57,590 bases of DNA, taken from positions 1 through 57,590 of the IMG/VR virus record IMGVR_UViG_3300020472_000028, one strand, 5' to 3'. A program made the position numbers and the translations under genes. The stretch is from a virus. Below, piece after piece: positions 2,666 through 57,300 of this stretch (positions are counted from its first letter, which is position 1; every line of letters starts with the position of its first letter). The notes under the pieces are model-generated. The model saw nothing but the letters and a program-made list of their open reading frames with translations. It was not told the origin of the DNA and searched no databases.

Positions 2666-3538
2666 ATGTCCACCAAAATAATTGGTAATCAGATTGATGC
2701 TACGACTCGTGCCATAATGGAGGCACTACAGTTGACAGAGCAACTCAATCTCCCTGCTCTTAACCAAGCAGCGGTAACTGCTTTAGGTACTCCTGCCTAT
2801 GGTACCATTGTGTACAACTCTACGGAGGATATGGCACAGATCTATAAACAGGATGCTGCCCAGGGTGTGCCAGGTTGGACAGATGTAGGTGGAGGTGGTC
2901 CCTCAGTTGGTGAGAATAGTATAATAAGGACTAACGGCACAACGATAGGAGAAAACTTAACTATAGGTCCAGTTGCTAACGGTGGAGTAGAATTTACAAA
3001 CGGTTTTAGCGCAGGTCCAATCACTATTGCAAACGGTTTTACAGTCACGATTGAAAATAATGCCACGTGGAATATCCTCGGTGGTGATGACATGTTAAAC
3101 CTTGAGGTTGTAGATATAATAACTCAAGATTTCAGATCAACTGGAATGCATTTCTCAGGTGGTCGTAAAGAGCATTGTAAATTCTATGCTGATTATAGTG
3201 GTGATGTAACTCATAGTATTAATAACGGTAACACAATATATGTCACAAGAAATGGTGGTGGTAACTTTAGGATAAACCTAACAGATATGGATGAGCACAA
3301 TGGTGACGGTAGTTGTTATCATTTCAGATGTTTCTGTGAGAATGCAGGAGCAAACGGATTGCCATCTAGCATAAGTATATTAGGTATAAACTGTCCTATT
3401 GACTGGTCTGGAGGATCAGGACCAAGTATGAACCAAGACTATGCTATGGTTGATTTCCTTATTATAGATAAGGTACCTAAGAATCAAGATGGTAATGAGG
3501 AGTTTGTGGTACTAGGACACTGGAGAACTTATAACTAA
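2666..3538 (+). CDS. Tail-fibre-like structural protein
   Basis: A 290-residue protein whose ATG lies 8 bp after a GGGG run that could serve as a ribosome binding site. Residues ~1-75 resemble a head-proximal fibre segment (PAYGTIVYNST, an element common in phage fibres that display a status or label strand). Then come a Gly-rich linker (DVGGGG), short beta-repeats (NGFSAGPITIANGFTVTIENNATW), and a C-terminal ~140 residues that look globular. The repeated pattern of a small hydrophobic patch followed by TIxNNxxW matches fibre proteins of marine T4-like phages. No enzyme motif is visible. It lies between a long virion gene and the adhesin block, so receptor binding or fibre structure is likely. 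Confidence 0.65.
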   Translation: MSTKIIGNQIDATTRAIMEALQLTEQLNLPALNQAAVTALGTPAYGTIVYNSTEDMAQIYKQDAAQGVPGWTDVGGGGPSVGENSIIRTNGTTIGENLTIGPVANGGVEFTNGFSAGPITIANGFTVTIENNATWNILGGDDMLNLEVVDIITQDFRSTGMHFSGGRKEHCKFYADYSGDVTHSINNGNTIYVTRNGGGNFRINLTDMDEHNGDGSCYHFRCFCENAGANGLPSSISILGINCPIDWSGGSGPSMNQDYAMVDFLIIDKVPKNQDGNEEFVVLGHWRTYN

Positions 3539-3543
3539 ATGAT

Positions 3544-4161
3544 ATGATATTTGATACCCCTCTCTGGATTAAGAGAGTTGATTTTGATAATGATAAATTA
3601 GAGCAAGAGATATATAATTTCTCTGAGCATGAACCTAATCACCCATATTCTTCTAACGGAGGGTATCAGGGTGATTTGTTTTATAACAAAGAATGGATAG
3701 ATCTAGTTGCTGCTAATTGCCCATTTAGAGAAGATAAACCATTAAGTAATATAATGATATATTCTTGGTGTAATATCAATCCAAAGGGAGCATCTAACTC
3801 TAGACATATACACGCAGATACAAATATATTTCTGTGCGGTGTATACTATGTGAAGGTGCCTAAATACTCAGGTAGCATAAGATTTTATGACCCTAGAGGT
3901 CCATTAGTCCATGTGCAACGTGATCATGAATATTTTAATGATGGTATAGATAAGCATGAGATCGAACCAGAGTCTGGGACGTTAATATATTTCCCGTCGT
4001 GGTTAGAGCATGATGTGACTGAGAATGAGAGTGATGATGATCGGATATCAATAGCATTCAATTTGTCTGCTGATTTTGAGGGTAAGAGTAATTGCTTAGA
4101 AGTATCTGAGCACAATCCTTTTGCTCAGAATCAGGGACATTCTGGAAAATATCTGGTATAA
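3544..4161 (+). CDS. 2OG-Fe(II) oxygenase, TIGR02466-like
   Basis: A 205-aa double-stranded beta-helix oxygenase. The likely metal ligands are in RHIHAD (His88 and His90) and the distal His156 in FPSWLEHDV. Arg167 in DDDRISIAFN is placed to bind the 2-oxoglutarate C5 carboxylate. The order of elements is that of the TIGR02466 family: HxH, GVYYVKVP, a Gly-containing beta strand, FPSxLxH, RxSxAFN. Such enzymes couple 2-oxoglutarate decarboxylation to hydroxylation of a substrate, which is unknown here. It sits between the fibre-like gene and the three adhesins, away from the main oxygenase cluster, so modification of a tail component is an attractive but unproven idea. A late-promoter-like box overlaps its stop codon. 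Confidence 0.8.
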   Translation: MIFDTPLWIKRVDFDNDKLEQEIYNFSEHEPNHPYSSNGGYQGDLFYNKEWIDLVAANCPFREDKPLSNIMIYSWCNINPKGASNSRHIHADTNIFLCGVYYVKVPKYSGSIRFYDPRGPLVHVQRDHEYFNDGIDKHEIEPESGTLIYFPSWLEHDVTENESDDDRISIAFNLSADFEGKSNCLEVSEHNPFAQNQGHSGKYLV

Positions 4162-11411: not shown

Positions 11412-12081
11412 GCATCTATTTCCAACACCTATATGGATATTTGATGACGTACCATTAGATAATGATCAGATTCGTAATTTTGTATATCAAGTACAAAAGG
11501 ATGATCCTGATGGTATGAGAAAGTCTAACATGGGTGGATGGCAATCTAATGATTTTATTGCACCCTATATTGATAACACACCATTAGGTGACTTACATCA
11601 TCATGCAACAGCAAATACATATACTGCTGGTGACGAATTTGGGTTTCGTGATTATACCCTTAAGTTGTCAAATATGTGGATGAATATTAATAAGAAGGGA
11701 GATAGTAATCACATACACACACATTCTGGATCTATGTTTGCTGGTGTATACTATGCAAAGGTACCCAACTGTTGTTGTGGTGAATTAAAATTTCATAGAC
11801 CTATGCAAGATCAGTGTATCAAAGAATATTGGGGATGCAATGAGAACTTTGATAGACATGAGGAGGCAATGAATTTCACTGAGTGGTATGTACAACCTAA
11901 AGAAAATACTATGGTTATATTTCCATCATGGTTGATGCACAGTGTTGACAAGAGTGCTAGTGATGATGATAGAATATCTCTATCATTTAATATGCACGTG
12001 TTTTCTAATTATTATCGTGAAAATGAAGTATATCCACAAAAAAGATATAATAAACCCAACGTACCTCTCTCGCTTAAATAA
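11395..12081 (+). CDS. 2OG-Fe(II) oxygenase, TIGR02466-like
   Basis: A 228-aa oxygenase of the same type as that at 3544. HIHTH (His106, 108, 110) supplies the proximal ligands, FPSWLMH ends at the distal His182, and Arg193 in DDDRISLSFNM fits the 2-oxoglutarate site. An extra Cys cluster (NCCCGELKF, 125-133) is unusual for the family and could be structural or metal-related. It overlaps the upstream gene by 17 bp. It is the first of an almost unbroken run of oxygenases. The substrate is unknown. Confidence 0.8.
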   Translation: MKLRTEHLFPTPIWIFDDVPLDNDQIRNFVYQVQKDDPDGMRKSNMGGWQSNDFIAPYIDNTPLGDLHHHATANTYTAGDEFGFRDYTLKLSNMWMNINKKGDSNHIHTHSGSMFAGVYYAKVPNCCCGELKFHRPMQDQCIKEYWGCNENFDRHEEAMNFTEWYVQPKENTMVIFPSWLMHSVDKSASDDDRISLSFNMHVFSNYYRENEVYPQKRYNKPNVPLSLK

Positions 12082-12682
12082 ATTAGTATCAGGTCAGAAT
12101 GGATTTCCTTGGTATTTTATATCAGAGGATATATCATATGATGATGCAACTGACTTTAAGTTTGGTGGTGAGGAGATAAGGAATAAGGTACCCGATAAGG
12201 AGAGATCCATCGGGTTTGTCCATATGTTATTAGATCAGGATGGTGTTGAGAGTCCTTGGTTACCTCATTTCTTACCACTATGTGATATGATAAGTGATTC
12301 AATGCCACATCCAGTTGAATTCTTTAGATTGAGGTTAGCATTAATCACTGATATAGGTAAAGAGGGACATCATAATGCACCACATACTGATAATGAGGAG
12401 GACCATTATGCAGCACTATTCTATCTACATGAGTCAAATGGTGATACTGTATTCTTTGATCAGTATGATGACCCTAAGAGTGGCACTGTAGATGAGAGAT
12501 GGTACAAAGCAAGACACCAAAAATATACTATTCAGAAGAGGGTAACACCTGAACCAAATAGTTTATTTGTATTCGATGGACATCAGTTCCATGCTTCAAC
12601 AAATCCATACGGTGAGCACCTCTACCGTGTGACATTAAATATTAATTTCAGATGTAACCATGATCTCTTCGCTACTTGCTAA
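12023..12682 (+). CDS. 2OG-Fe(II) oxygenase (HxD...H type)
   Basis: I place the start at the ATG at 12023, giving 219 aa; the frame stays open upstream to 11942 but that segment is out-of-frame coding for the previous gene. The likely iron ligands are His121 and Asp123 in APHTDNEEDH and His190 in VFDGHQFHAST. Arg202 (YRVTLNINF) would bind 2-oxoglutarate. FYLHESNGDTVFFDQ is the typical central strand of phage prolyl-hydroxylase-like enzymes. A non-ATG start a little further downstream is possible, since the first ~20 residues are not conserved-looking. Confidence 0.75.
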   Translation: MKYIHKKDIINPTYLSRLNKLVSGQNGFPWYFISEDISYDDATDFKFGGEEIRNKVPDKERSIGFVHMLLDQDGVESPWLPHFLPLCDMISDSMPHPVEFFRLRLALITDIGKEGHHNAPHTDNEEDHYAALFYLHESNGDTVFFDQYDDPKSGTVDERWYKARHQKYTIQKRVTPEPNSLFVFDGHQFHASTNPYGEHLYRVTLNINFRCNHDLFATC

Positions 12683-13391
12683 ATTACACTCATCAAAGAA
12701 TTGGGCAGAGGATGATGAACCACAACTGTGGGAAGGTATTGTTGAGGATCCACATCAGTTTGCTACATGGGATGAGGTAGAGTATTGTCTTAACAACCCA
12801 CAATTTTATTCTATTACATTTATTAATAAGGATGAAGTTAGGTTTGTTGAGTTACCTGAGTATGAACGTTGTTGGTCAAGATCAACAGCAGATGTAGAAG
12901 AGATAATGAAGAATTGGGAGTATGGTCATAATTTAATTATTAATAATTTCGATCAAGGATTTCGTAAGAAGCAAGAGATAATAGAACAGTTTGAGAGATA
13001 CTTTGATGGTAAGACAGCATTTCATGTGTATGCTGGTCTAATGAAATGTAATTCATTTAATGCACATGAAGATACTGCAAGTAATTTTATATTACAAGTA
13101 GAAGGAGAGACACACTGGAAAGTATATAGAAATAGATGTAGTAATCTATTAAAGAAACAACCACAAAGGAAGGAAGACTTTGATTTCTATCAAGATATAG
13201 TACCAGAACCAGAGGCATTAGATTGTGTAATAGATCACGTGTTAAAACCAGGTGATATACTATACATACCAGCACGAGGATATCATCAAGCATTCCCAAG
13301 TGGTAAGAGATTATCTGTTAGCATACCGATGCAGCACATGTTACCACATCTAAAACCTATTGATAGGAAATATTATGACCTTTCCCATTGA
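12660..13391 (+). CDS. JmjC/Cupin_4-type 2OG oxygenase
   Basis: A 243-aa protein with the JmjC-type cupin signature. FNAHEDTASNF gives His136 and Asp138, Lys154 lies in THWKVY, and the distal His209 is in LYIPARGYHQAF, followed by LSVSIPM. This arrangement resembles Cupin_4 / bacterial ribosomal oxygenases (YcfD/RoxA), which hydroxylate an arginine in ribosomal protein L16, but lacks their long C-terminal dimerisation and winged-helix parts. It overlaps the preceding oxygenase by 23 bp. A protein substrate (host ribosome or phage virion protein) is plausible from family precedent. The true substrate is not known. Confidence 0.75.
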   Translation: MISSLLAKLHSSKNWAEDDEPQLWEGIVEDPHQFATWDEVEYCLNNPQFYSITFINKDEVRFVELPEYERCWSRSTADVEEIMKNWEYGHNLIINNFDQGFRKKQEIIEQFERYFDGKTAFHVYAGLMKCNSFNAHEDTASNFILQVEGETHWKVYRNRCSNLLKKQPQRKEDFDFYQDIVPEPEALDCVIDHVLKPGDILYIPARGYHQAFPSGKRLSVSIPMQHMLPHLKPIDRKYYDLSH

Positions 13392-22204: not shown

Positions 22205-22580
22205 TCAAAGAGATAACGATGAACTCAAATACTATGAGGACATCTATCACACTGATGATAGTATTACTATAGATGGTAAACAATTACCATCATTTACTAT
22301 AGTTGAGAATACTTATTATAGTGATGAAACTGATGATGAATACAGGGTTAATGCACGTATTGCATGTCAATTAGGCAATGCAGAAGGCATGAAACAGTTT
22401 ATATCAGTAACTGATAAAGTGTTAAACCCGATGATATTTAATGGCAATACTTTATGGACTTATGAAAGAATAGCAGCATTTCCTACTGTTGCTAGTTGTA
22501 AAGAATACATAGAGAATTATATAAATGAAGATGTAACAAAACAGATCTTTAGTAAGCAACATGAATTAATGGACAGTTGA
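22182..22580 (+). CDS. Hypothetical protein
   Basis: A 132-aa protein from the ATG at 22182 (MALQITNSQRD); a TTG two codons earlier is less likely. It has a beta-rich middle (DSITIDGKQLPSFTIVENTYY) and a helical end (CKEYIENYINEDVTKQIF). It is the last gene before the early-type control region that follows. No family is recognised. Confidence 0.55.
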   Translation: MALQITNSQRDNDELKYYEDIYHTDDSITIDGKQLPSFTIVENTYYSDETDDEYRVNARIACQLGNAEGMKQFISVTDKVLNPMIFNGNTLWTYERIAAFPTVASCKEYIENYINEDVTKQIFSKQHELMDS

Positions 22581-22641
22581 CAAAGTGGACTTTTTTGTTG
22601 CATATTGTAACGATTTAGTCAAAAATGACCATTTGTCAAGT

Positions 22642-22647
22642 TATAAT
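22642..22647 (+). promoter_or_regulatory. Sigma70-like -10 box
   Basis: A perfect TATAAT, without a convincing -35 box at the right distance. Transcription would start near 22654, which is exactly the first base of the long RNA stem described next. It probably drives the basic protein gene at 22766 and is a candidate early promoter. Confidence 0.5.
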
Positions 22648-22653
22648 GAGTAT

Positions 22654-22742
22654 GCGAAACACAAAACAGGCATCCAATGGGTTAGGTGAGAGTCCTAACA
22701 TTAACTAGATGTCATTGAATCTAAGACCTGTTTTTGTTTCGC
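22654..22742 (+). ncRNA. Nested stem-loop RNA element (leader or small RNA)
   Basis: Three nested pairings are visible. The outer stem joins CGAAACACAAAACAGG (22655-22670) with CCTGTTTTTGTTTCG (22727-22741), about 15 pairs with one bulge, plus a closing G-C (22654/22742). A middle stem CAATG/CATTG (22675-22679 with 22713-22717) encloses an apical hairpin GTTAGG/CCTAAC (22681-22686 with 22694-22699) with a 7-nt loop. The predicted transcription start is at the base of the outer stem. An ATG at 22709 lies inside the structure, so the next in-frame ATG at 22766 is the better start for the following gene. It does not match any RNA family that I can recognise. Confidence 0.5.
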
Positions 22743-22765
22743 TCACCCCTTACAACTGGTCATTT

Positions 22766-23092
22766 ATGCCAACTGCAACACCTCGCAAGTCAACCTCTAC
22801 AACACCACGTAAGAGACGGACACGCAAGGCAACTGCCCCTAAAGCAGTCAAGACAGTACCAACCATCAAAGAGGTAAAGCAAATGACAGTTGAAACACCA
22901 GTGAGACCAACCCCACTCCTCAAATTTGAAGACTATCAAAAAGACTTCAATATTAGACTTGAGATCCACAATTATGAGATCAAAGAGTTAATTAAGGACA
23001 TAAAGTGGGTTTACGAGCAATCAAAACCACTCGTAAAGCAAGGTTATGACTACGTTGTTTCATCTTACAATCGAGCATTTGTCTCTGAGTGA
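22766..23092 (+). CDS. Basic histone-tail-like protein
   Basis: A 108-aa protein from the ATG at 22766; an in-frame ATG at 22709 would add 19 residues but lies within the RNA structure. The first ~45 residues are dense in Lys, Arg, Pro, Thr and Ala (TPRKSTSTTPRKRRTRKA, then TAPKAVKTVPT), much like a histone H1 tail or other disordered nucleic-acid-binding tail. Residues 50-108 are helical. It could bind host or phage DNA, or RNA polymerase, early in infection. That is inference from charge and promoter type. A terminator follows. Confidence 0.6.
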   Translation: MPTATPRKSTSTTPRKRRTRKATAPKAVKTVPTIKEVKQMTVETPVRPTPLLKFEDYQKDFNIRLEIHNYEIKELIKDIKWVYEQSKPLVKQGYDYVVSSYNRAFVSE

Positions 23093-27269: not shown

Positions 27270-27440
27270 ATGTCTAAAGTAACAACGATCAACACTAATC
27301 CTCCAGTAGATGTTAAATTGTGGGAAACACGTAGGAAACACTTTTGGGCGTATAATTACGATGGATGTAATAAGAATGGTCCGTTTAAAAGCGAGAAGTT
27401 AGCATTACTAGACGCAACGCAATTTAGCAGCGATTCTTAA
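27270..27440 (+). CDS. Small hypothetical protein
   Basis: A 56-aa protein starting MSKVTTINTNPPVDVKLW. The aromatic middle (RRKHFWAYNYDGCNKNGPF) and a helix KSEKLALLDATQF suggest a compact fold. The leader has TAACAACAACTTGCCCC and no Shine-Dalgarno. The upstream in-frame ATG at 27177 lies in the previous gene and is not favoured. Confidence 0.5.
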   Translation: MSKVTTINTNPPVDVKLWETRRKHFWAYNYDGCNKNGPFKSEKLALLDATQFSSDS

Positions 27441-27775
27441 CACATAGCACACACACAGTTGTTGATACTATAGGGGGACATATTACCCCCACTAATTAAC
27501 ACAAACTGTATACCCACTGATTAACAACAACTGTGTGTGGGTGTTAGTATCACATAGAGCATGTAATCACCAGGTGCATTATTAACACAAACCGTGTAGG
27601 CACTATGTGTATATGAGCATGAGCATATTAGCATATGTTAAATAACAAATAGCGTATACACACAAAATGTTAATAAACAGTTATTAACTTTTCCACTATG
27701 TGTAACCTACAAAAGTATAGGATCGATATCAAAATATTTTTTCTAATATAAAAATTTTCCCATAGGTTTTTTTCA
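27441..27775. other. Non-coding AT-rich region with repeats
   Basis: About 335 bp without a credible gene. It holds a GGGGG/CCCCC hairpin with an 8-nt loop (27473-27490) and three copies of TTAACAMMAACYGT (27496, 27521, 27582). It also has alternating CATATG-type steps (GAGCATGAGCATATTAGCATATG near 27614), a TTTTCCACT (27689-27697) close to the DnaA box, and an A/T run just before the next gene. It could be an origin, an early/late boundary or a control region. Confidence 0.5.
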
Positions 27776-28255
27776 GTGTCAGAGTTTAATCAAAATCCCT
27801 TAGAGATCGCCCAAGAGAAATTAGAAGAGGAATACAAAGATCTCATAGGTCTCCCTTGGATTGGAAGGAGATATCCAGGTTGTTATAGAATTATTCAACT
27901 TTACGCTGAGAGTCGCCTTGGAAGGTCTCTGAAGGACTTCTCAGGGTTATATACATCCTTCAAGGATGAAGCAGTAGCAGAAGAGAATGGACTCTGGATA
28001 AGCAAACCAGAATGGGGAGAGGACTGGGATATGTCTATCTTACAAAAACATGATCTCCTATTGTTTAAGATATACACCGAAGCACTGGGTGGTGCCTACT
28101 CCGAGAAGGCGGGAAGGGCACCCAATCACGGTGGAGTTTACTTAGGGGATGGATGGATGATTCATCAGTTGTGGCAGACTGACAGTTGTATTGTGAGACT
28201 AGATGAGCACTATCGCAAGTGTTGTGTAGGTATAGTGAGGGAAAATGCTACATAA
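27776..28255 (+). CDS. NlpC/P60-like cysteine peptidase (tail-associated)
   Basis: A 159-aa protein beginning with GTG. The likely nucleophile is Cys36 in RRYPGCYRIIQLY and the base is His118 in PNHGGVYLGDGWMIHQ (His130 follows). This last stretch closely matches the NlpC/P60 domain of phage lambda tail protein K. Such domains cleave the peptide cross-links of peptidoglycan and sit at the tail tip, easing DNA entry. The spacing Cys-~80-His is normal for the family. The adjacent baseplate genes support a virion role; a free endolysin-like role cannot be excluded. Confidence 0.75.
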   Translation: MSEFNQNPLEIAQEKLEEEYKDLIGLPWIGRRYPGCYRIIQLYAESRLGRSLKDFSGLYTSFKDEAVAEENGLWISKPEWGEDWDMSILQKHDLLLFKIYTEALGGAYSEKAGRAPNHGGVYLGDGWMIHQLWQTDSCIVRLDEHYRKCCVGIVRENAT

Positions 28256-54300: not shown

Positions 54301-57300
54301 GCTGCTACTTTCACTCCTAATAACGGTCACTTAGTTGCTACTATTGGGGATCATGATCTAAGAAGAGGACAGAGTGTAAGATTAGCAACAGAATCTATTA
54401 ACTTCACATGTTTCTTAGATGCTAATAATAGTAATCACTACTATCCACGTCCTAATGGTAATGACCCATTCTATAACAAGAATATCGAAGTACTTTATGA
54501 CGGCACACCTCTAACTGCTACTGGTGGTACAACATATAATCCTACTACAGGTATAATGACCATCACTACTGCTAATCCTCATGGATTGCAAGAAGGTGAT
54601 GATGTTAAGTTCCTCCTTAATTCATTAGTATTCCGTTGTGATGAAGATGGTCAATCATCTGATCACTCCTATCCAAGAGCATCAGACCCATATGCAAATA
54701 GATGGCAACGTGTATTAGGTAGTAACTTAACTGCTAATACATTTGACGTACAAGTATTATCATATGCTCCTTCAACTAACACAACTACTCACGTATTCTC
54801 TGCTGCTGTTTCTAATGGAATTACTAAGAGAGACGGCACTATAACTCTTAATGTTGGTAACGGTGCTATCTCAGATCAGAGCGCACATACCTTCGTTCCT
54901 AATACTGGAATGACCCCAACAAATGTTAATCATAATCCTACTACAGGTGTTATGACAGTAACCATTGTTGGTCATGGAATGGAAAATGGTGACATGATTA
55001 AGATTGATAATTATGGCATATTATTAACATGTGCTATGGATGATCATCAGACTACTCATGCTTATCCTCGTCCTGGTGACCCTGCTTCTGGATCATGGTT
55101 GAAGATTCATGATGTAACTGCTGACACATTCGATGTTACAGTTAACACAGTTATACCTCAGAGTAATACAACAACTCACCTATTCTCTAGTGCTGTTGGT
55201 AACTGCATTACTAGAGCACAGATTGTAAGTGGTGGTGTTTATGATCATACTTACTCAACTTCTACTGTTGATTGCTTACGTCATGCTGGAGACTGTGTAA
55301 GGTTAGATGAAGCTGCAATCACAATGACATGTGATGCTGATAGTCATGGATCTAATCATTCATATCCTAGATCTGGTACAGTTCATACACCAACAGATGT
55401 ATCATATGATCCTAATTTAGGACATCTTAAGTTTACTGTTAATGATCACGGATTCCTTCCATACTCTTACGTTAAGATTGTTGACAACTCTTTAACATTC
55501 ACATGTGCTAAGGATGGTAATGCAAGTAATCATACATATCCTCGTCCTTCTGACCCTGTAAGTGGTAAGTGGATGATGATTCATGATGTTACTGCTAACA
55601 CATTTAACGTAGAAGTATTAGATGTAGTACCTTCTACAAATACTACAATCCATGCCTTTGTATCTGCTGATGCAAATTGTATTCATCATAAGAAGGATCA
55701 TTTCTACGATACAAATATTCCTATCTACGAAGTAGGTAAGACAGATCATAGTCCTACTAACGCTCAGTATAATCCTACTAATGGTACTATGACAATTACC
55801 ATGAGCAATAGCTTTGGTAACCATAGCACAATGACACCAACTGGTGCTACATTCTATCCTGCTACAGGTACCATGAGAATTGATCTTAATGGTCATAGCG
55901 TTAAGAATGGAGATATGTTACTCCTTCGGGATGGACACTTTACCTTCCAGTGTGAGCAAGATAGTAATGCAAGTAATCATGCATATCCAAGACCATCTGA
56001 CCCTGCAAGTAATAAGTGGTTGAAAGCATTTAATGTTGGTAGTAACTCATTCGATGTTAACGTAGGTAACTTCTTCGGTGAAGGTGCTATTTCAAACAAT
56101 ACAGTCCATCAACTTACATCCATCGGTACCGATGCCGTTTGGAAAGCAAATGATTTTGTAATGCTTGATGAGAATGCAGTTACATTCCAATGCACTAAGG
56201 ATAACAACGCTAGTAACCACTCTTATCCTAGAAGGACAGATCCTACATTTGGTAAGTGGTTACCTATCTCTAATGTAAGTAACAGTAGTTTCACTGTCCA
56301 TATAGGCAAGTCTGGTATTAACGATGTTTATGATCATACATTTGTTTCTTGGGAGAATCTCTCATTACATAGACAAACTGGTCAGATAACACTTGATATT
56401 GGTAATGGTCAGATTACTCACCCAACTTCTCATAACTTTATAAGTGCATTAGCTAATAGTCTGAAGGTAGGTGGTGCATATAACCACACATTCGTTGCAG
56501 ATGGTGAATCATATACACCAACTGATGCTAGTTACAATCCAACAACAGGTTGGATGACTGTTACTATTCCTAATCATGGGTTCATGGATGGAGAGAGTAT
56601 TAAGTTTAATACCAATTCAATAGTATTCACATGCTTACAAGATAGTAATCAGACTAATCATGCTTATCCTAGAAACAGTGACCCAGTAGGTAATCAATGG
56701 ATTGCTATTTCTAACGTAACTGATGATACCTTTGATGTTAAGGTACTTGATAATGCTCCATCAACCAACCAGACAGTTCACACATTTGTAAGTGCTCTAG
56801 AAGGTGCTGTTGTTAGAGCAACAGTTGCAACTGGTGGTAACTACACTCATAAGTTTATTGCTCCTGCACAACTTACTCCAACCAATGCTGCTTACAACCC
56901 AACAACAGGTGTAATGACACTTACTGTTGCTGATCACGGTCTTAAGAATGGTAGCAGGATTAAGGTAGAAGATGGATTTGTAACATTCACCTGCACACAG
57001 GATAGCGATCAATCTAATCACTCATATCCAAGGGCATCTGACCCATATAGTGATGAATGGATGACAGTTAAGAATGTAACTAAAGACACATTCACTATCC
57101 AAGTATTATTCAATATACCTTCTTCTAACACTACAACTCATTCATTTGTATCTGCTAGACCTCAGAGTATAACTGTTGCTACCTTGATGAAGGGTAATGA
57201 CAGTATCAAACTTGCTGCTGATGCTTTAACATTCACTTGCTCAATGGATGGTAATGGATCTGACCATACCTATCCAAGGACATCTGACCCTGCATATGAT

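Follow-up and report, generated by a model that had tools for sequence, protein, structure and literature searches.

A structured RNA leader at a predicted transcription start in a T4-like marine cyanophage and its family of exchangeable RNA modules

The leader and its surroundings

The window analysed here, 57,590 bases long, is a viral contig. Since it encodes T4-type baseplate and tail-fibre genes, and its DNA resembles cyanophage helicases, we assign it to a T4-like marine cyanophage. The structured element that concerns us, at 22654-22742, lies downstream of a gene that ends at 22580 (phrog_36241) and upstream of a plus-strand gene, P0001 (22766-23092), which encodes a 108-aa protein of unknown function (phrog_27005) with a lysine/arginine-rich N-terminus, and which is followed by a helicase gene.

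Proteins related to P0001 are of two kinds, with the basic N-terminus in common and the remainder different. Specifically, two unrelated C-terminal domains follow a nearly identical N-terminus, MPTATPRK...TPRKRRTRKATA (in P0001 and its relatives in L008-L012 and L152-L159), and the DNA of this shared part is almost identical too, which suggests that it is an exchanged N-terminal tag. In the majority of the basic-protein relatives a TATA-like box lies directly upstream of the gene, followed by a long stem around a variable interior; no obvious leader of this type was seen in L003 or L147-L151.

The predicted -10 box of the window, TATAAT (22642-22647, plus strand), is accompanied by a poor -35 box, and about 6-7 nt downstream of it, at G22654, is the foot of the outer stem, P1. 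The 5' arm of P1, GCGAAACA-C-AAAACAGG (22654-22670), begins at the predicted +1 and forms 16 pairs with the 3' arm, CCUGUUUUUGUUUCGC (22727-22742), pairing 22654-22661 with 22735-22742 and 22663-22670 with 22727-22734 around a single bulged C at 22662. Within it stands the core of what we call module B, GGCAUCCAAUGGG ... CAUUGAAUNUAAGNCC (22669-22728), which is shared by 10 other distinct loci. This core contains a middle stem, in which CAAUG (22675-22679) pairs with CAUUG (22713-22717) and which is the same in all members, and an apical hairpin, GUUAGG-UGAGAGU-CCUAAC (22681-22699), whose stem (22681-22686 with 22694-22699) shows compensated variation among relatives. The 23 nucleotides that separate the 3' arm from the ATG of P0001 (22743-22765) are unpaired and offer the ribosome a single-stranded binding region beyond the stem.

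The element folds at -28.8 kcal/mol, a value that was equalled by none of 200 shuffled sequences (z -4.17) and, in an independent run, by one of 1000 (z -4.26). Among the 89-nt windows of the contig, 86 of 11,502 fold at least equally well, as do 20 of the 6,310 matched for GC content (0.3-0.7%). In the single-sequence minimum-energy fold a local UAGAU/AUCUA hairpin takes the place of the middle stem; the nested fold, with outer, middle and apical parts, is the one adopted by the relatives L277 and L019. Because the antisense strand folds equally well (-30.4 kcal/mol), folding energy is uninformative on the strand, which we decided instead from G-U pairs, the promoter and the orientation of the genes. 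The possibility that the element is an intrinsic terminator was rejected, since the leader was not picked up as a terminator-like site and its 3' arm is followed by TCACCCC, with no T run.

An additional inverted repeat, AATGACCA/TGGTCATT (22620-22636 and 22752-22768), flanks the promoter, the leader and the start codon and is also present in the closely related locus L002. A transcript begun further upstream could bury the start codon in this repeat.

A family of exchangeable RNA modules

Besides the window, module B (laid out as GGCAUCCAAUGGG, a variable hairpin and CAUUGAAUNUAAGNCC) was found at L277, L019 (also L301 and L309), L297, L298, L272, L274, L275, L273, L246 and L247. At five of these loci, the window, L277, L019, L297 and L298, it lies directly beneath the same 5'-terminal stem with a -10-like box before it, and five different proteins are encoded downstream; at L246, L247, L272, L274 and L275 it sits inside another module, C. 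The copy at L273 (about 3424-3600) is followed directly by a sequence that, on visual inspection, resembles a tRNA gene and not by a protein gene.

A covariance model of module B, R2, scored 72.3 bits on the window (22655-22740), which was among the nine sequences used to build it, and 55.4 and 74.3 bits on L297 and L298, which were outside the training set. Across the nine sequences 96.1% of the cells were paired, with six pairs changed on both sides; none of 500 shuffles reached the covariation score, and partners slid out of register were paired in only 24-44%. The search pattern behind most copies fixed the conserved strands and left the flanking stem and the apical hairpin free, and the apical helix was 97% paired, with three pairs changed on both sides (variants include GUAGG/CCUAC, GUAAG/CUUAC and GCAAC/GUUGC). 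The middle stem is 100% paired yet invariant, so covariation lends no support to this stem itself. Pattern matches at L270, L271 and L276 were discarded as G+C-rich or otherwise unrelated contigs with coding-like sequence, as were lax matches in cellular genomes, which scored at most 31 bits and looked like chance. A pattern for the P1 stem only, with 120 mostly unrelated matches, was too unspecific, yet it recovered the true relative L019.

A second module, A (AATTAGACTNNNTAAANNNGTTAG), occurs at 104 places on 103 marine viral contigs and was found in none of 84,980 cellular species genomes; its model, R1, found no match in the window record, which has module B instead. Module A combines a hairpin, CUNN-GUAAA-NNAG, with an AAUUAG/UAGNAU internal loop and a closing helix that varies freely, and since this closing helix lies outside the search pattern it offers an unbiased test of pairing. 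In 40 distinct sequences all 400 pair cells of the module A helices were standard, and 101 cells were changed on both sides. The covariation score was 0.708 against 0.200 after shuffling, and slid partners were paired in only 22-43%. On the sense strand there were eight G-U cells and no A-C cells, which assigns the functional RNA to that strand. These compensatory changes, seen in module B and far more strongly in module A, are the decisive evidence for the structure. The conservation of the loops is partly by construction, because the limits of the modules were drawn by eye and with exact patterns; most of the sequences are metagenomic contigs, and the covariance model contributed few divergent copies.

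Further recurring modules, labelled C, E, F, H, I, J, K and so on, are combined with these in nested or serial order, for example as H-E-A2, F-A-F-E, C-B-A-C and C-A2-C. On the reverse strand of L176 (about 11640-12900), some ten module matches extend over roughly 1 kb with one gene downstream, an array whose sequence would potentially yield a very large ornate RNA. We know of no comparable modular architecture in a natural RNA. Modules A and B are present in about one copy per genome and do not head all phage mRNAs. The window has a second strong hairpin, at 27450-27539 (17/18 pairs, z -3.3), which encloses a GGGGG/CCCCC hairpin and lies in a region devoid of genes (about 27440-27776); no relatives of module A or B were found there.

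The comparison of close relatives indicates that interiors are exchanged under a closing stem that remains paired. The window and L002 are 92% identical across 1.2 kb, promoter and spacer included, and their downstream proteins are 99% identical, but their elements have wholly different interiors; of the stem, the outermost GCGAAAC/GTTTCGC alone persists, and its inner half is altered on both sides. Modules were also found in the cultured Prochlorococcus phages P-SSM2, P-SSM5, P-TIM68 and P-RSM6. In P-SSM2 (AY939844) two leaders, whose P1 stems have their feet near 55824 and 56627, follow immediately after a DNA methyltransferase gene and precede PSSM2_070 and PSSM2_071; in the limited set of open-access literature searched we found no mention of PSSM2_068 to PSSM2_071. 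P-SSM2 and P-SSM5 are one species, and the interiors of their first leaders are almost completely different, with part of module I moved into module C and with P1 changed in compensated fashion (GGGAAACAAAAGAGG/CCTCTTTTTGTTTCTC versus GGGAAAACAAACGAGG/CCTCAGTTTTGTTTTCTC). The P-RSM6 leader likewise lies upstream of a protein with a basic N-terminus. In this genome (HQ634193) CPXG_00171 is annotated as starting within the structured leader, near 150381, and the basic protein probably starts further downstream than annotated.

Position, orientation and possible functions

The preliminary description had placed the outer stem at a predicted transcription start, and the relatives bear this out. 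Among 28 distinct leaders with GGGAAAC/GUUUC-type stems, counted with a spacing of 3-10 nt allowed, the stem starts 8 nt after a -10-like hexamer in 26 and 6 nt after it in two; a G-U pair recurs in P1 (GGGAAAC/GUUUCUC), and the next ATG lies mostly 17-30 nt past the 3' arm. When 285 TATA-like hexamers were inspected more widely, a strong enclosing stem was present 2-9 nt downstream in 7-10%, compared with about 1% upstream. On the sense side of module A an open reading frame of at least 40 aa begins within 350 nt in 86 of 92 copies (median 96.5 aa), against 41 of 92 on the antisense side (median 51 aa). In module A contigs a different promoter-like sequence, AA(G/T)TGTNNNNATAGTGAGAG, unlike TATAAT, stands directly before the closing stem in 19 distinct versions (L192, L197, L199, L201, L207, L226, L230 and others); it may be a phage-specific promoter.

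The leader hairpin is thus real, and it represents one form of a class of folded RNAs, not catalogued before, that stand at the very beginning of some messages. With its structure and compensatory conservation, its sense orientation, its position at starts predicted from -10-like boxes, the swapping of its modules and its independence of particular genes all directly observed, the RNA module family is well supported, and we infer its function from this layout. The leader family probably shields or tunes the messages of viruses that infect ocean cyanobacteria. Specifically we favour, with moderate confidence, a modular 5' leader that acts in cis, its 5' end closed and 20-30 unpaired nucleotides left before the start codon, and that would most likely protect the mRNA. 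Transcription from the TATAAT box would start at the foot of P1, and P1 would close at least one nested module; a short single-stranded segment would then lead to the start codon. With the mRNA 5' end tucked into a stable fold, whatever the gene, host ribonucleases that depend on a free 5' end, such as RNase E, RNase J and RppH-type enzymes, would be kept from starting decay, and the landing site of the ribosome would stay accessible. Those bases of the modules that are conserved but unpaired probably either build compact folds or serve to bind a protein. According to references given in PMC3997798, 5'-terminal stems hinder RNase E in E. coli, and phage infection of Prochlorococcus raises host RNase E (PMC9692554).

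Protection of the 5' end is the simplest function that fits the mRNA-leader layout, the independence of the downstream gene and the exchange of interiors with preservation of the closing stem. Since a plain hairpin would be enough for protection, however, the conserved internal loops and the arrays of several modules suggest a more specific role, and the loops point to something further, for example protein binding or compact tertiary folds. Two observations count against protection: modules A and B are each limited to about one copy per genome, and not all basic-protein relatives carry a leader. More tentatively, we would see here a combinatorial RNA system, in which interchangeable modules recombine, nested or arrayed under a 5'-terminal stem, at the head of selected transcripts of marine T4-like cyanophages, and which may be evolving as defence or counter-defence against host RNA decay or RNA-targeting immunity.

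The alternative that survives best, which we nevertheless consider unlikely, is that the leader or its closed domains are processed into a stable small or ornate RNA that acts in trans, for instance to sequester or inhibit a host defence or RNA-binding protein, so that the rapid swapping of modules would reflect an arms race. The exchange of interiors between close phages, the arrays of closed domains, the single copy or so of a given module per genome and the DNA methyltransferase gene that adjoins the leaders in P-SSM2 would all suit such an RNA, but in most clean cases the start codon lies about 20-30 nt past the last stem, the layout of an mRNA leader, and in the window no terminator separates the leader from the start codon.

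More doubtful still is a leader that acts on the transcribing polymerase as an antiterminator, like the put RNA of HK022. It would explain why the elements head transcription units of many small genes whatever their identity, and why several leaders begin just past terminator-like sequences; the modules are very diverse, however, and an RNA that binds polymerase should be uniform.

Regulation specific to the gene downstream, whether by a riboswitch or by feedback of the basic protein on its own leader, is very improbable. It would include the idea, raised when the element was first noted, that folding chooses between ATG 22709 and ATG 22766 as the start of the basic protein. The leader does lie directly upstream, and the lysine/arginine-rich N-terminus could bind RNA. 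However, ATG 22709 is private to the window: at that place its near-twin L002 lacks an ATG in frame, and in most relatives the reading frame is interrupted by a stop a short way before the real ATG. Moreover, the genes that follow module B differ among phages, so the module is not peculiar to the basic-protein gene, and homologous genes carry different modules. Of the original proposal, then, a real RNA structure at a predicted start holds, and a choice between two starts of the basic protein does not. Equally improbable are mobile palindromes or recombination hot spots that act as DNA and land after promoters without any RNA function: nesting, insertion-like exchange and shared stem ends that could guide recombination are what they would predict, but the compensatory helix changes, G-U pairs on the sense strand only, sense orientation to the next gene and fixed distance from the -10 box speak against them.

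If 5'-end protection by exchangeable modules is correct, these phages rapidly exchange a toolbox of RNA parts with the closing stem intact, so that it is RNA structure, not protein, that is quickly renewed, and the modules are natural examples of RNA folds built by nesting. Elaborate leaders appear to have gone uncatalogued in ocean viruses that are well studied, the cultured P-SSM2 among them, and in cultured phage-host pairs they offer a directly testable handle on how cyanophage messages survive despite the RNase E that the phage itself raises (PMC9692554).

Comparison with known RNAs

In Rfam 15 neither the whole window nor eight related loci gave a match at the gathering threshold, and lax thresholds returned only chance matches to unrelated families. 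The curated thresholds of manA, wcaG, PhotoRC-II, glnA, Downstream-peptide, SAM and preQ1 were not reached, in agreement with the early impression that the element is not one of the last four. Nor did we find a published description of these leaders in Rfam 15 and the limited open-access literature searched.

The manA (RF01745) and wcaG (RF01761) RNAs, whose function is unknown, are structured and come from T4-like cyanophages and marine metagenomes, where they lie in what may be 5' UTRs (Weinberg 2010, PMC2864571). The present leaders resemble them in structure and in their potential 5' UTR position before T4-like cyanophage genes, and differ in consisting of exchangeable nested modules under a 5'-terminal closing stem, mostly ahead of small genes of unknown function; neither model matched here at or near its Rfam threshold. 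Stable protective stem-loops at or near the mRNA 5' end are described for ompA and papA in work cited in PMC3997798. As in those mRNAs, a stem at the 5' end, here a predicted one, is followed by a single-stranded ribosome-binding region, but ompA and papA are host genes with simple hairpins and have no conserved internal modules, nesting or exchange.

The put RNA of phage HK022 is structured, heads an operon and allows polymerase to disregard terminators. Its likeness to the leaders lies in the structured head of a phage transcript that is indifferent to the gene downstream, and the leaders, which head transcription units, are placed as a put-type, two-hairpin RNA that suppresses terminators would be; put, however, is small and uniform and acts on E. 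coli polymerase. GOLLD and ROOL have been linked to phages. These ornate RNAs are large, independent and elaborate, with variable parts (PMC12286853), whereas the present elements, of short to medium size, are leaders tied to a start codon and have no Rfam match. Finally, antisense RNA is thought to shield cyanophage transcripts from RNase E, according to work cited in PMC9692554. The proposed purpose is alike, namely the survival of phage RNA in a host rich in RNase E, but the antisense shield is an intermolecular duplex, whereas the leader would achieve it with an intramolecular 5' stem.
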